This document shows, in pieces, positions 25,750-46,988 of a DNA stretch of 64,000 nucleotides (positions are counted from its first letter, which is position 1; each line of letters begins with the position of its first letter). This stretch comes from Patiria pectinifera (Eukaryota > Echinodermata > Asteroidea > Valvatida > Asterinidae), in the NCBI GenBank assembly GCA_029964075.1, contig CM057135.1, positions 23,958,863 to 24,022,862 of the forward strand, given 5' to 3'. The translations under genes and the position numbers were made by a program. The notes under the pieces are model-generated. The model was not told the DNA's origin. It ran no database searches and saw only the letters and a program-made list of their open reading frames with translations.

Positions 25750-26885
25750 ATCTTTAAAAAAATTATTAAACGAAATAGAAGCCGCATCTTAGGCCAAAAG
25801 AAAGTTCTGCTTCCGGTTCCCTACCTACCCTATTTTTTTATGGGAAAATGAGAACAAAACACCCGATACCATCAATGTCTACCTTGTGACGCATACGTCT
25901 CCATAATGATCCTACCCAAAAAAATGTCAAAAAAAATTAAAAATACATTCCCTACCTACCATACCTACCATATTTTTGAACGCCATGAAAAAATAATCGG
26001 AAGCAGAACTTTTTGGTTTGTTGCCTTCACAAATGTCCCCAAAGCGTCAGCATTCGAGAAAATAGTCACACCCTCTCTCACATGCAAGATTTTCTGGCTA
26101 CGCAACCGGCAGTCTGGGACATCACAGGGGAGCCTCCCTAGCAACAGTGTCTCTAGGCAACCAGGTTGGAATGTGACAGTTTTGCTGCACCTGCGGCTCA
26201 GCCTAGCAAGGAATTCCAGCCATTGGCCATCAATATCCATTTGAGTGTGGAAGGCGTGTCATATTCATGAAAGCATAAATGGTCCGTGAAGAAAGCAACC
26301 AATGGCGTATTTATTTGCCGGGACCGGCTCATTTAATTGGCTGAGACTGTTCATCAGACACCGTCCTCAAAGTTCGGCGGCGCCTTTTAAATGATGCCAA
26401 ATAGATCTTTGTAACAACAACGAATATGTGTTGTATCAATTTGAACAATGCGGCTATCAATCATTCTGCGGGGAAGGTTTTTTTTGTTATATTTTATCTG
26501 GGCATTTTTTCAAAGGCCATGAAAACTTTGGAAAAAAAATGAGGGAAACTGAAATTTCACCCAGGCCGGTTTTGTGAATATGCACATGGCAAAATAACGA
26601 GTCGGGTAGGGATATTCCAAGTCCCAAAATGAGTCATTAAATGCAGAGAGACCTCCATGTCTTTTTTGATATTATTCTTCGTTTAAAAAAAACACCATAA
26701 CATTGCCTACATTATTTTGTGTAGATGTTACTCTAGAATATATTTTTCACGTTCAGTATTAATAAAAGTTCAAGGGCTGTTGATAATCTTGATTTTATTC
26801 CTTTAAAAATAATAAAAACTAAGCATAATTCGTATAAAATTTTCCCCAGGAATTCACATGAAATTGAACTGACAGTTCAGAATTT
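25750..26885. repeat. ~1.1-kb direct duplication, copy 1
   Basis: About 95 percent identical by eye over 25750-26400 to 30872-31520, less beyond. It contains matching blocks such as GGCCAAAAGAAAGTTCTGCT and CCGGGACCGGCTCATTTAAT. No conserved ORF beyond a shared 74-112-codon frame that shifts between copies. The end carries one unit of the degenerate family at 31.9-33.5 kb (GAATTTAATGGGCTAAGAT). Confidence 0.85.
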
Positions 26886-30871: not shown

Positions 30872-32050
30872 TATCTTTAAAAAAAATATTAAACGAAATA
30901 GAAGCCGCATCTTAGGCCAAAAGAAAGTTCTGCTTCCGGTTCCCTACCTACCCTATTTTTTTATGGGAAAATGAGAACAAAACACCCGATACCATCAATG
31001 TCTACCTTGTGACGCATACGTCTCCATAATGATCCTACCCAAAAAAATGTCAAAAAAAATTAAAAATACATTCCCTACCTACCATACCTACCATATTTTT
31101 GAACGCCATGAAAAAATAATCGGAAGCAGAACTTTTTGGTTTGTTGCCTTCACAAATGTCCCCAAAGCGTCAGCATTCGAGAAAATAGTCACACCCTCTC
31201 TCACATGCAAGATTTTCTGGCTACGCAACCGGCAGTCTGGGACATCACAGGGGAGCCTCCCTAGCAACAGTATCTCTAGGCAACCAGGTTGGAATGTGAC
31301 AGTTTTGTGCACCTGCGGCTCAGCCTAGCAAGGAATTCCAGCCATTGGCCATCAATATCCGTTTGAGTGCGGAAGGCGCGTCATATTCATGAAAGCATAA
31401 ATAGTCCGTGAAGAAAGCAACCAATGGCGTATTTATTTGCCGGGACCGGCTCATTTAATTGGCTGAGACTGTTCATGGGACACCGTCCTCAAAGTTCGGC
31501 GGCGCCTTTAGCTGATGCCAAACTGATCCTTTGTATATAACGAGCAACAGATGTATTGTATCAATTTGAACAATGCGGCCATCAATCATTCTGCTGGGAA
31601 GGTTTTTTTAAAGATTTTATTTGGGCATTTTTTTCAAAGACCATAAAAACTTCAAACAGAAAATGAGGTAAACTGAAATTTCACACGGGCCCCTTTTGTG
31701 AATATGCACATGAAAAAATAACGAGTCGGGTAGGGATATTCCAAGTCCCAAAATAATTCATTAAATGCAGGGCCCTCCATGTGTTTATTTCGGGGCAAGA
31801 CTTTATTCTTCATTTAAACCCCCCATCGACCCCTGCCCCAAACAATCCCCACCCCACCCCACTATGCCTACATTATTCCGTGAAGGCTAGATGTTACTCT
31901 AGAATGTATTTTGACGATCAATATAAAAGTCCAAGGGCTGTTGATAATCTTGATCTTATTCCTTTAAAATAAAAAAAAAACATAAGCATAATTCGTATTT
32001 ACGTTTCCCCAGGAGTTCACAGAAGATTTAACTGAGAGTTCATAATTTAA
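30872..32050. repeat. ~1.1-kb direct duplication, copy 2
   Basis: Second copy of the 25750 block in the same orientation, 5.1 kb downstream. It differs by scattered substitutions and a C-rich stretch at 31820-31860. Confidence 0.85.
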
Positions 32051-39731: not shown

Positions 39732-42700
39732 TCATTGGGCTGGTGGGAGTGAACTGAGTGCGCTATTAACAAGTCTGTTGAGATATGGGACTGGGCTATT
39801 ATAAAAACGGGTTGTTTTACAAGATGGAACATGAAGTGTTCGTTTGGACCGGAGATTCATAGTATGGGTGCTTTTAGATTTGACAAACCACTCATTGAAT
39901 TTGCTTGAGTTAAAGGATTTCATTGCAAATTTGTTACAAAGGGAGGTTCTGCGCATGTCCAAGGGTTCCAAACCAAAACTGGTCAAAGCTTGTTCATATC
40001 CACTATATTTTTGACCCAATATAATGTGGCACACTCTTCTTTGTATTGATTCCAATAGATTAGAAAGAGTTGTGGTGATGCCCGAGTGCCACAATGGGGC
40101 AGCATATTCTATAACAGGCCTAATATAACCTTTATACACGGCCACAAGCTCTTTGTCAGTTAACCCTGTCATTTTGAGTTTCCTAAGCATGAAAAGTTTC
40201 ATGTTGGCTTTTTAACAATCTCCATGACATTGGCATCCCATTTTAAGTTGTTTTGCAATGTAACACCTAACAACTTCACACTGGGAACCTGTTGAAGATG
40301 AACATTAGAAATGGAATATTGAACGAAGGGAGGATCTTTTTTCCCAAAGTACACCTGCATGGTGTTACATTTAGAAGGGTTCAATTGGATTTTGTTTGCC
40401 AATGCCCAGTCATTGAGATTGTTTAAATCTGCCTGAATCCTGCTTACACCAGTAATGTGTCTATTTTCGCTGAGAGTGAGATCATCTACATATTTCCAGC
40501 ATTTATTTTGAGTACAGTCAACGGCGTTATTAATATAGGCAAGGAATACAACAGGTCCGAGTTTAGTACCTTGGGGCACACCCCCAGAAAGAGTATGCCA
40601 ATCAGAAAATGTTTGTTTATACCTAACCCTTTGTTGACGACCAGTTAGGAAACTAACAATCCATTGCACAATAGCAGGCGATACACCCAACTCCAACAGT
40701 TTGTCAACAGCAATTTCATGGTTTACCAAATCAAAGGCTTTAGTAAAATCTGTGAGCACAAGGGTACTAACATTATTTGGAACACAAGCACCAGAGACTA
40801 GGTTATGATAAACATCAACCAGGCAATGGGTAGTGGAGATTCCTTTCTGATTGCCATATTGCCTTTTATCGACATTGGGTTGGATAGAGTTCATGATCCA
40901 TTTACAAATAAAACCTTCAGCAATTTTTGCCAGTAATGGAGTCAAAGAGATGGGCCTAAGTTTATGTAAAGTAGGCGGGAGTTGCTTCGGTATGGGAACA
41001 ATGTCGGCTTGTTTCCACTGAACGGAACGCTGCATTGACAAAACGATGCATTGATTATTTCAGTAACTGGTGTACTAAGCTCATACGCAAATTCTATGAG
41101 CAATTTGGCTGGCAAATTATCGGGTCCTCCAGATTTACTAACGGACATTCTCTTTAATTCATTGTAAACTTCCCAGGGATGGACCTGAGGAGGTGGCTCA
41201 CGTGATGGTAAGTAAGCTGGCAAATTGTCAAGATTGAGGGGCTCGTGTACTTGTGAGAAACTCGCCAGGTGATTATTTATGACGTTAGCAACGGATTCAT
41301 GATCTGACGGATCAATGTCTGGCACATGTAAAGTGAGGTCACTTTTCTTTATGTTAGCCAGGTTACGCACCTCTTTGTGCCACCTCCCTGGGTCCAGCTT
41401 TTGTAATTTGCGAATCCTACCAGCATAAAAGGAATGCTTAGCTGCTTTTATCGCTCTTATGACTCTGTTACGAATACATCGGAATTGGTGTCTGTTGCCA
41501 TCAACAAATGCTTTCTGTCTCAGATTAATTAGATACTTAATTTGATTAGTAATCCAGGGTTTGTCAGTAATATGAGACTTAATTACCCTGACAGGAAAGT
41601 GATTTGCAACAGCCTGATCCATCATACTATAAAAAGCATCACATTTGGTTTGACAGTCACTGGCAGTTATTACTTCATCCCAGCTTTGGGCCTGTATCCA
41701 TCTACCAAAAGATCTAATACAAGAATCTTTAAGAGGTCTGATAATTTTGGTTATCGCTTCATTGGTGACTGATAGACTTTTCGGAACCCATAAAATACAA
41801 TTGTGATCACTTCTGCCCACAGGTGCAGACACACTAGGACATTTGTATTGATCAGCAAAATTAGTAACAATAAGATCAAGAATTGCATCTTGTCTAGTCG
41901 GCTTGTTAACTACTTGGGTGAGATTGTTACCATTACAAATGGGTCTAATGTCAAATTTGTTGAAGTCTCCAAGCAATACTACTCCAGTACTTGGTTGATG
42001 TGTCAGAAGATAGTCCACTGAACTAATGATGTGTTGCTGTAGAAGATCTTCATATGGGGAATCTGGTGGATTGTACACTGCAAACACTGCAATGGAAGGA
42101 ACAGCTCTCGGGAAATTCGGGTGGTTCAACATTATCCATTCTCCCTCGATTTCAGGTGGAACATTGAGATCATGAATCGGTGAAGCTTTGATGTGATTCT
42201 TTACATACACAGATACCCCACCACCATTTCTATCAAGTCTGCACTTGTTGAAGACATTGTAACCTTCCAGGGAGAATTGCTCAAGAGCAGTATTTGGAGT
42301 GATCCATGTTTCAGTTATTACAGCCACATCTATTTGCTCGTTGTTAAGCTTCAATTCCATCTCGTCAAGTTTGTTCAATATAGAACATGTATTCGTCAGA
42401 AAAAAACGTGGAAGGGTAGCTGCATGGTTTTGGGAGCATGTAGATTGTAGACACTGTCTGATGGGCACTTGTTTGAGGGCCGATTGCTGAATCAGTAGTC
42501 GTGGTCGTAGTCTGGCATGTTGAGACATACGTTGAGTCACTCGGACTGGTATATTGGCCTGTTGGTAATGGGATGATATGCTGGTGTGGTTCCATGATGT
42601 ATTTTGACGTGCGTGTTGCTGTACACGACGGTTGTCGTCCACTCGGCGTTTCCAACTCCCTCTCATTCCAGGCCCACGGTAGCGTAGTAAACCATTCTTC

Positions 42701-43173
42701 TTCAATGTCTCAAAAAGATGGGGAAGGACTCCGTAGCGAGCTGATTTGCCAATCTTAAAAAGTTGGGCTCGGGAGTACTTAATGTTGTCATCGCTGTTTG
42801 CATTTTCTTTGTTGGTCACGGTGCTACAGTGTTTCCAAGAGCCAGGGTCAGCACAACTGCCAGGGCCCGGATTAACTTGAACATCCATGAAAATGGTGAT
42901 ATCAAAGGCTGGCTGGTCTTTAGGTAAAAACAAACATGTTTGCCCATGCTTTGTAACTTTTACCAGCGAAATTCTAATTCGTGAAGAATTGCTGTCATTG
43001 TTTTTTACTGCGATATGCAGCTTACACTGTACAATAGGCAGTACAAAGTCAACTTCAGAGTTTGGATTTTCACACAGATGAGTTACTGGATGGAGTGATA
43101 CATGGTGTAATTGATTAACAAGCATGATCATTGAAATACACAAGTATATCACTCTCCTGGTGGTGGCAGCCAT
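39732..43173 (-). pseudogene. LINE polyprotein: N-terminal 2A-like segment, endonuclease, reverse transcriptase; two frameshifts
   Basis: Three frames abut: 43173-40942 (743 codons), 41041-40199 and 40202-39732, about 1,150 residues in all. Residues 8-20 are hydrophobic (VIYLCISMIMLVN). DVQVNPGP at residues 97-104 is 2A-like. Endonuclease marks: NTCSILNKLDEMELKL, VITETWI, GGGVSVYVK, VLLGDFNKFD, VGRSDHNCI. Reverse transcriptase marks: LRPISLTPLLAKIAEG, FTKAFDLVNHEIAVDKLLEL, GGVPQGTKLGPVVF and the catalytic YVDDLTL. The tail resembles the usual CR1/Jockey end (YIRPVIEYAAPLWHSG). The frame is lost near 41035 and again near 40208 (an A-run on the coding strand). Confidence 0.92.
42862..42885 (-). 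other. 2A-like ribosome-skipping motif in LINE ORF
   Basis: Codes DVQVNPGP, close to the D-V/I-E-x-N-P-G-P consensus but with Gln instead of Glu. Such motifs are known near the N-terminus of non-LTR retrotransposons of sea urchins and other invertebrates. It would release about 103 residues that begin with a hydrophobic segment. Confidence 0.7.
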
Positions 43174-43680
43174 ATTGATTGTACATTACCAGTCACAACA
43201 TCACAGATGATCTTCAAACTTGGCTCAAAAAGTAGATAAAATCACACAGATACAGTCACAAAATGAAGCTCGAATGTGTAGTAGATAGTTTGTAGGCCAG
43301 GAGATAACAAAGAATCAGCGGATGGCTCACTTAAAAAGAGATATTTACAGATTTAAAATTACAGACATCACAGTAAGTTAAAAGTGGCAGCTCACACGAA
43401 GAGCGCCCTCAATTTATATGAATGTACAGGGTACAAGTGTAGTGGTCTTGTATGAAATTGAAATTAAGTTCTCCAAAACCTATTATAAGATGGAATTTTT
43501 GCGTCGGGGTGATATAAATCAAATTAGGTTTTGCCCTTCACCGACGTTTTTTTAAAAAAACGTCGGTGAAGGGCAAAACCTAATTTGATTTATATCACCC
43601 CGACGCAAAATTCCATCTTATAATAGTTTATGCGGTACCCGCTGCTATGTACATCAGATTCGAACCGGCCAACCGATCCC

Positions 43681-43756
43681 GTTAGCTCGGTGGTCGAGTG
43701 GTAAGACATCTGCACTAGAAAGCAGGAGGTCGTGGGTTCGAGTCCCACCCGAGTGA
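43681..43756 (+). tRNA. tRNA-like sequence, unit 1 (probably not a functional tRNA)
   Basis: A box TGGTCGAGTGG (43691-43701) and B box GGTTCGAGTCC (43735-43745). The T arm GTGGG/CCCAC is intact. The anticodon stem TCTGC/GCAGG closes an 8-nt loop ACTAGAAA, one base too long, and the acceptor stem pairs only in part. Best read as a SINE promoter. Confidence 0.55.
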
Positions 43757-43931
43757 TTTTTTCCAACTTTCACTCGGGAGGTAACACACTGAGTATACAG
43801 TGTTTAAAAAACGTCGGTGAAGGGCAAAACCTAATTTGATTTATATCACCCCGACGCAAAATTCCATCTTATAATAGTTTATGCGGTACCCGCTGCTATG
43901 TACATCAGATTCGAACCGGCCAACCGATCCC

Positions 43932-44007
43932 GTTAGCTCGGTGGTCGAGTGGTAAGACATCTGCACTAGAAAGCAGGAGGTCGTGGGTTCGAGTCCCACC
44001 CGAGTGA
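43932..44007 (+). tRNA. tRNA-like sequence, unit 2
   Basis: Same as unit 1 with the same 8-nt loop. It is a copy made by tandem reiteration of the retroposon unit. Confidence 0.5.
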
Positions 44008-44180
44008 TTTTTCCAACTTTCACTCGGGAGGTAACACACTGAGTATACAGTGTTTAAAAACGTCGGTGAAGGGCAAAACCTAATTTGATTTATATCACCC
44101 CGACGCAAAATTCCATCTTATAATAGTTTATGCGGTACCCGCTGCTATGTACATCAGATTCGAACCGGCCAACCGATCCC

Positions 44181-44256
44181 GTTAGCTCGGTGGTCGAGTG
44201 GTAAGACATCTGCACTAGAAAGCAGGAGGTTGTGGGTTCGAGTCCCACCCGAGTGA
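44181..44256 (+). tRNA. tRNA-like sequence, unit 3
   Basis: Same as units 1 and 2, with one difference (AGGTTGTGGG for AGGTCGTGGG) just before the B box. Confidence 0.5.
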
Positions 44257-44886
44257 TTTTTTCCAACTTTCACTCGGGAGGTAACACACTGAGTATACAG
44301 TGTTTAAAAACGTCGGTGAAGGGCAAAACCTAATTTGATTCTCCAAAACCTACCTACATGTACATTGTACATGTACATTTATTTCTCTAGAATCATTAAC
44401 TGAAAATTACTACACAATTTCTTAAACTCGCAACAACAAACATTTGTTTGGGGGGTGATGTACATTTTGGACCCCGCACACATCACCTTGATTGTTCTCA
44501 AAGATTTTGGAATATTTCCTTCCCGCTGTGTGGCATATAACACACGTGCAACTGATAGGCTCTGGGCACAAGGTACACAGTGTACGGCACGCTGGGGCAT
44601 GAGGATATAGTGCATGAGTAACATTAATTTTTTTTATACTAAGACCCACAACAGTTTAAGACTCAAACAGTTGTCAAGAATAATGCCACGATATAAAAAA
44701 ACAACTGTGTGTTGGGATATAGTCCCAAGAGTTTTGTACAACCTCAGGGGGAAATGGTACCCTCAGCTTCACCTCGGTTGCCATTTGCACCCCTCAGTCA
44801 TACAAACGCCAAGGATTAGGACAAAGCAGCCAACAATTGCAGAATGTACAAAGGGACGTGTCACATGATTGCAGTGTAATGAAGTA

Positions 44887-46446: not shown

Positions 46447-46946
46447 NNNNNNNNNNNNNNNNNNNNNNNNNNNNNNNNNNNNNNNNNNNNNNNNNNNNNN
46501 NNNNNNNNNNNNNNNNNNNNNNNNNNNNNNNNNNNNNNNNNNNNNNNNNNNNNNNNNNNNNNNNNNNNNNNNNNNNNNNNNNNNNNNNNNNNNNNNNNNN
46601 NNNNNNNNNNNNNNNNNNNNNNNNNNNNNNNNNNNNNNNNNNNNNNNNNNNNNNNNNNNNNNNNNNNNNNNNNNNNNNNNNNNNNNNNNNNNNNNNNNNN
46701 NNNNNNNNNNNNNNNNNNNNNNNNNNNNNNNNNNNNNNNNNNNNNNNNNNNNNNNNNNNNNNNNNNNNNNNNNNNNNNNNNNNNNNNNNNNNNNNNNNNN
46801 NNNNNNNNNNNNNNNNNNNNNNNNNNNNNNNNNNNNNNNNNNNNNNNNNNNNNNNNNNNNNNNNNNNNNNNNNNNNNNNNNNNNNNNNNNNNNNNNNNNN
46901 NNNNNNNNNNNNNNNNNNNNNNNNNNNNNNNNNNNNNNNNNNNNNN
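46447..46946. other. Assembly gap (500 N)
   Basis: Exactly 500 unknown bases, a conventional placeholder for a gap of unknown size. It lies 42 bp upstream of the first SNX25 exon seen. Frames reported through it are meaningless. Confidence 0.99.
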
Positions 46947-46988
46947 ATATGGTAATTTTTTTCATTTTTTTTGCATTTTGCTCCGTAG

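Follow-up and report, generated by a model that had tools for sequence, protein, structure and literature searches.

We conclude that the insertion at the center of this study belongs to a family of arrays whose outer ends nearly always lie at two fixed sites inside a ~250-bp unit, and that the units and inverted arms of each array most likely derive from one template. The insertion lies in a 64,000-nucleotide stretch of Patiria pectinifera DNA, which we call the window. From its sequence features, the element is probably a non-autonomous, retrozyme-like element that is moved by the machinery of Penelope-like elements (PLEs) and that carries a tRNA-like domain, with no hammerhead found.

The three-unit insertion described in the first-pass annotation is real. 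A head-to-head inverted leader precedes three tRNA-bearing units of ~250 bp, spaced 251 and 249 bp apart, and a partial unit of 33 bases (Table 1). The leader and all of the units lie within one 14-bp target duplication. The annotation's proposal of a single insertion is supported. The edge bases of the duplication also match the unit ends, and its length could be 12-14 bp. Unit positions (u1-u250) are numbered from window position 43556. The 71-base leader is the reverse complement of the first ~70 bases of the unit (96% identity over u1-77), and positions 43497-43553 pair with 43554-43610 at 57 of 57 bases, making a perfect palindrome at the junction. The pattern is not a chance arrangement, since the family has at least 386 matches in the genome (40 of 2827 candidates scored; 613,548,705 bases in 1020 contigs).

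Table 1. Features of the insertion, in window coordinates.
Feature	Position	Strand	Basis or remark
Target-site duplication, left copy	43469..43482		TTCTCCAAAACCTA; length 12-14 bp, as edge bases also match the unit ends
Inverted arm, primed at site B (outer end u68), extends to u1	43483..43553	-	inverted repeats; mapped ends
Head-to-head junction (T7/A7) and unit 1 (u1 = 43556)	43554..43806	+	
Unit 2	43807..44055	+	repeat comparison
Unit 3	44056..44305	+	repeat comparison
Partial unit u1-u33, outer end = site A	44306..44338	+	mapped ends
tRNA-like domain, unit 1	43684..43756	+	Rfam RF00005, 49.9 bits
tRNA-like domain, unit 2	43935..44007	+	Rfam RF00005, 49.9 bits
tRNA-like domain, unit 3	44184..44256	+	Rfam RF00005, 49.8 bits
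Target-site duplication, right copy	44339..44352		TTCTCCAAAACCTA

Two sets of loci were compared. The first contained 40 loci, the window copy (L001) and the 39 best matches to the whole insert; the second contained 20 loci from the best unit matches outside the first set, of which L055 was dropped because its flanks are those of L054. One array was counted per locus, giving 26 two-armed and 14 one-armed arrays in the first set and 10 and 9 in the second. The total of 59 arrays and 95 outer ends thus comes from best matches and is not a random sample, and some ends were scored by eye. End counts exclude L055, matches shorter than 150 bp, short old copies in L009 and L020, and a small insert in L047. 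Variant counts exclude first-set arrays shorter than 600 bp.

Monomers, dimers and trimers do not appear to be the natural way of counting these insertions, as had been suggested: the 20 loci chosen by unit identity span 286-854 bp with no steps of 250, and insertions reach ~16-20 short units. The annotation had also named a contrary pattern, in which other loci are all monomers and the trimer arose by local duplication that includes flanking DNA, and this did not come true in the examined loci. The L054 and L055 pair does look duplicated. These loci have the same insertion and the same flanks, ~31 kb apart on one chromosome, and the segment that contains them seems to have been copied.

Nearly all of the outer ends (90 of 95) are at one of two sites. 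After the duplication is trimmed, site A is at u26-36 (most at u30-35) and site B is at u58-70 (most at u66-70), with ~35 nt between them; without trimming, the end matches extend a few bases further. Thirty-six of the 59 arrays have two arms, arranged head to head and pointing outward. In 29 of these one arm ends at A and the other at B, two are A/A, none are B/B, and five have other pairings (A/B versus same-site, 29:2, p = 5e-7). The one-armed arrays all end at A (8 of 23) or B (15 of 23), and one of them, L016, has a 6-base stub matching the A end before the duplication. Of the A/B arrays, 20 are first-set loci whose duplication was detected by script. In L039 and L047 a 12-bp duplication was recognized by eye, and both arrays entered the target analysis below. 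The others are the second-set loci L049, L050, L052, L056, L059, L062 and L063, with L050 ending at u62, short of the usual B. For the A/A arrays, L022 and L065, a duplication was looked for and none was found. The other pairings are B/u15 (L032), B/unclear (L026 and L045), u153/A (L061) and B/u3 (L064). Duplications across the arrays are 10-17 bp, most of them 12-14. The 65 inner ends are spread over the unit, with excesses at u1-5 (11 ends) and u226-233 (8 ends) that flank a predicted hairpin. A two-armed insert near L047:745-910, outside the counts, is ~150 bp long, shorter than one unit; its ends are B/A by eye, and its 13-bp duplication has one mismatch.

The positions of these ends bear on two further explanations. 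A tRNA-derived SINE moved by a LINE, with twin priming by chance, would account for the tRNA-like domain and the duplication. However, there is no fixed 3' tail (and no poly(A) among the array ends listed), the outer ends are at A or B inside the unit, more than half of the arrays are two-armed, and the target is palindromic (see below). We therefore consider the SINE explanation very improbable. The annotation's twin priming is supported in that both strands seem to have been primed, but the leader is not the kind of accident seen with SINEs, given the number of two-armed arrays and the 29 with two fixed sites. Even less credible is self-primed fold-back of a single cDNA, which could produce an inverted repeat. 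Self-priming on an antisense template is proposed for rotifer Penelope copies in PMC3846280, and the window junction is a perfect palindrome. Fold-back, however, predicts equal outer ends in both arms, in contrast to the A/B pairing in most two-armed arrays, and in most cases the two arms also have different inner ends.

The target is palindromic, as would be expected from cleavage by a pair of similar subunits, one per strand. When arrays are oriented with B to the left and A to the right, AAC precedes and GTT follows a duplication of mostly 12 bp (20 arrays with clear duplications). The base directly after the duplication is G in 24 of 40 half-sites (p = 4e-8 versus 20%). This count excludes L012, L014, L019, L037, L021 and L025, with imperfect or one-armed duplications, and the entire second set.

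Sequence variants indicate that one template was used for the units and arms of an array. Units differ by a median of 0.4% within an array and 2.0% between arrays (167 units, 36 loci). Sites with five or more copies in an array gave 208 variants confined to a single copy, 22 present in every copy, 8 missing from just one copy and 7 of intermediate frequency (41 arrays, with L022 in two parts). For example, L014 has three changes in 11 of 11 copies, and L031 has three changes in 7 or 8 of as many copies. L012 is an exception, with two variants that are common to seven units and missing from one of eight. A private 5-base deletion in L035 is present in all seven units and in the short arm. Fixed variants of the long arm are also in the short arm in 17 of 19 testable cases, compared to 0.53 expected from random template choice; the two that are absent are C131T in L040 and T66C in L045. 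Since the units of an array and both of its arms have private variants in common, both arms were probably copied from the same template. In addition, among 49 fixed alleles in 60 arrays or parts, 38 occur in a single array, and insertion thus seems to involve a bottleneck down to a single unit; for these alleles, presence in all but one of at least five copies was scored as fixed. This pattern points to repeated copying of one monomer and is not explained by a linear tandem transcript of an older array.

The best reading is that the template is one monomeric RNA that is copied repeatedly, from both of the cut strands. The simplest form of such a template would be a closed circle, which it probably is. 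The annotation had proposed a multimeric template, rolling-circle-like or made by read-through. The rolling-circle-like aspect agrees with our results, but the template was probably one monomer, since variants private to an array recur in all, or almost all, of the units of both arms. Units are joined with no bases gained or lost, save for changes in homopolymer runs and one 47-base insertion. In L018 the length of a homopolymer run differs between units without substitutions, and run-length changes between units look like reverse transcriptase slippage in each round. An A-run near u51 varies widely by unit, up to 28 A, in L018:1954-4735 and in L022, where substitutions are absent or few, and this too looks like slippage.

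Other templates could produce some of these features. A linear monomer could be used if the reverse transcriptase, on reaching the 5' end of the 250-nt RNA, jumps to the same or another RNA, with PLE priming at A and B as before. No circle-forming motif was found in the unit, and the excess of inner ends at u1-5 could mark the 5' end of such an RNA. In contrast, the majority of inner ends are elsewhere in the unit, the joins between units are almost free of added or lost bases, and the variants common to all units and both arms would require that the same molecule, or sister molecules from one locus, be used every time. We think that template jumping is unlikely. Less likely still, in our view, is a linear RNA of several units with a genomic array, or an extrachromosomal DNA circle of one unit, as its source. 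Transcribable arrays do exist, a one-unit DNA circle would yield identical units, and PMC11167929 mentions a tandem PLE locus whose transcripts reportedly contain multiple copies. If a genomic array were the source, however, mutations in single units of the parent should stay single, and instead most fixed alleles are array-private. If the six A>G changes that recur throughout both arms of L040 should be RNA edits, they would be hard to reconcile with the DNA-circle version.

The L040 changes raise the possibility of RNA editing. At L040:1985-3109, both arms carry six A>G changes in each of their units, and the arms have no further change in common. Overall, A>G changes account for 15 of 49 fixed alleles versus 43 of 404 single-copy changes (p = 0.0004). 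The single-copy changes show no strand bias, with 43 A>G and 40 T>C, and 69 C>T and 67 G>A. These numbers would fit a sense RNA that was edited by a deaminase before it was copied, which we take as a hint only. We do not use editing as proof of one template molecule: the ratio of fixed A>G to T>C is 15:6 (p = 0.08), the comparison of that ratio between fixed and single-copy changes gives p = 0.14, six of these 15 A>G alleles come from L040 alone, and paired positions of the predicted fold do not predominate among the changed bases.

A tRNA-like domain is present in every unit, with Rfam scores well above the gathering score of 29 bits. ARAGORN reported three tRNA-like genes with an odd anticodon in the window, and units at L022 and L010 were called as tRNA-Ser(AGA) and tRNA-Phe, respectively. 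The loop sequence is CTAGAAA, and we take the domain to resemble a tRNA-Ser(AGA) without the long variable arm. Fixed variants are at 7 of 75 sites inside the domain versus 38 of 167 elsewhere (p = 0.013), a hint that its sequence is constrained. Directly after the domain is a T5-T6 run. Runs of this kind tend to stop RNA polymerase III, and an RNA polymerase III transcript of the whole unit is therefore doubtful. We speculate that the tRNA-like domain may have a role in RNA processing or in circle formation.

The unit is predicted to be highly folded and has no recognizable ribozyme. The predicted circular fold (-78.3) is below those of all 100 composition shuffles (mean -58.8, sd 4.8); the hairpins that were described in the unit are predicted ones. 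The annotation reported that it saw no hammerhead core, and this was borne out by three kinds of search. An Rfam scan up to E = 5 detected no hammerhead in the unit, CTGANGA is absent from both of its strands (there are only two sites with one mismatch), and a relaxed hammerhead descriptor matches a motif in the resident PLE (see below) and not the unit. Rfam alone is not decisive here, since it also misses that PLE motif. The same searches found no other known ribozyme or circle-forming motif in the unit. The sequence CTGAGTA...AAAAACGTC (u234 to u9) was considered as an active hammerhead core and rejected, since by eye it does not have the core bases and it overlaps a predicted hairpin. Many miRNA matches in the Rfam scan were also set aside, as they fall on the perfect inverted repeat.

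A PLE that resides in this genome, or a relative of it, is the likely helper of the unit, as judged from the ends of the two elements. A search for GIY-YIG domains gave at least 144 matches in the genome (150 of 358 candidates scored). One locus, L069, has an 854-aa frame with RVT_1 and GIY-YIG domains in the order found in PLEs, and 12 of 15 loci (L069 and L073-L083) look like members of this family; L070-L072 do not or are unclear. Its ends have the hammerhead-like motif CTGAAGA...GCAACGTC, which Rfam does not report. We examined the outer ends alone at seven PLE sites picked for head-to-head matches (L084-L097). Five of the seven pairs are A/B, with one end just after ...ACGTCAGGCCACATTAATTTTTAGA, the other ~60 bases further, and shared words of 13-15 bp as duplications. 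The remaining pairs are other/B (L090/L091) and A/slightly short of A (L096/L097). Outside the duplications, the first flanking base is G in 9 of 14 half-sites, and the flank starts with GT in 7.

The unit and the PLE also share short sequences around site A. GATTTATA is common to both and spans the site at the same place (GA|TTTATA), and AACGTC is 20-24 nt upstream of the site in each. For a randomly chosen pair of positions, a matching run of 8 bases across them has a frequency of 7e-5, before allowing for 1-2 bases of doubt in the end. A blastn comparison of the unit to the PLE gave nothing significant, the alignment of the region is weak (70 of 1000 shuffles are as good), and the A-B distance is ~35 nt in the unit versus ~60 nt in the PLE. 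The use of A for one end and B for the other may be a general rule for PLEs.

We postulate the following series of events. A transcript in the tRNA sense would give rise to a ~250-nt monomer, most likely a closed circle. The PLE protein, probably acting as a dimer, would cut both strands of the target ~12 bp apart at a palindromic, AAC-N12-GTT-like site, as suggested by the duplications and the site preference. From one of the 3' ends, cDNA synthesis would then begin at A, and from the other at B, which lies ~35 nt beyond A on the RNA, consistent with the fixed ends and their A/B pairing. Both strands would copy the same template, and each reverse transcriptase would go around it for a variable distance, a step that we infer from the private variants common to units and arms. 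Joining of the two cDNAs head to head at variable positions would leave inverted, often multimeric arms in one duplication. Several observations run contrary to this model. Of the two-armed arrays, 7 of 36 are not A/B, nor are 2 of 7 PLE pairs; two long-arm variants (in L040 and L045) and one unit of L012 depart from the pattern of shared variants; the searches of the unit gave no circle-forming motif; the unit and the PLE have little sequence in common and different A-B distances; and the anole enzyme showed no strand difference in start site (see below).

A more specific proposal, which we offer tentatively and regard as possible rather than probable, is that these elements are a class of circular-RNA elements that is free of ribozymes. 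The circle would be formed via the tRNA-like domain, for example if tRNA splicing endonuclease and ligase act on a tandem transcript and excise a single unit that runs from one anticodon loop to the next. This circle would be copied by a PLE dimer whose subunits start at A and B, respectively, so that each side of the same cut is supplied by one of them, and the division between A and B would be general for Penelope retrotransposition.

Several known elements resemble this one in part. tRNA-derived SINEs have a tRNA-like head, as does this unit in its tRNA-like domain, but the unit differs from them in that its ends are at two internal sites, its arms are permuted and inverted, and no 3' tail shared with a LINE was seen. 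Metazoan non-LTR retrozymes also consist of short, non-coding tandem units that are highly self-paired (PMC7229834, PMC7761336), and the ~250-bp tandem units fall within the retrozyme unit size of 150-450 bp. In these two papers, circular RNA is proposed as the template of retrozymes and PLEs as their likely helpers, which matches what we propose here; PMC7761336 reports no conserved motif in retrozyme repeats that points to the helper. Retrozymes carry type I hammerheads, whereas none was found in this unit. It also departs from retrozymes in its tRNA-like domain, the regularity of its head-to-head arms, its pair of fixed start sites and its palindromic target of 12 bp. We file the element neither as a retrozyme, since no hammerhead was found, nor as a SINE, since it does not have the 3' end that defines one. 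Helenus TRIMs resemble it in having a tRNA-like sequence repeated within a short retroelement and are described as having two LTRs, a PBS, a PPT and 4-5-bp duplications (PMC10886601). In contrast, the duplications here are 12-14 bp, the arms are permuted and inverted, and there is no LTR-internal-LTR plan.

In insertion structure, the element resembles PLEs. Anole Poseidon (PMC11167929) and rotifer Penelope (PMC3846280) have head-to-head inverted pieces and tandem copies, two internal start sites for reverse transcription that bound a tail of 30-40 bases, and cutting and extension of both target strands. In PMC11167929, both target strands are cleaved and extended by the anole PLE protein, with reverse transcription beginning at two neighboring internal positions that delimit the tail; no difference in start site was seen between the strands, and later steps of PLE integration are given there as not yet validated. 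A typical Penelope copy has an adjacent inverted pLTR, with a 31-bp tail that is optional at one inverted pLTR (PMC3846280). Unlike PLEs, the unit has no coding capacity, has a tRNA-like domain and can be present many times in one insertion, and the resident PLE has a hammerhead-like motif, whereas none was detected in the unit. Among the titles and abstracts that searches of open-licence literature listed, none describes the A/B pairing, the sharing of variants by both arms or a tRNA-bearing relative that is free of hammerheads.

The arrays provide a natural record that bears on PLE integration. In our view they point to a single small RNA as the template for both strands of the target, with a different start site for each strand, and copying of this kind would account for the tail and inverted repeats seen in Penelope copies. 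They also suggest that such elements can do without a detectable hammerhead and carry a tRNA-like domain instead. The inverted leader in the window is half of a regular two-sided product.

Other features of the window were seen in passing. Long frames on the minus strand at 39732-43185, which by eye resemble the endonuclease and reverse transcriptase parts of a LINE, stop a few hundred bases short of the insertion. There is a run of N's of roughly 500 bases at ~46447-46949, and two near-identical frames on the plus strand (25852-26244 and 30975-31328) represent a repeated segment.
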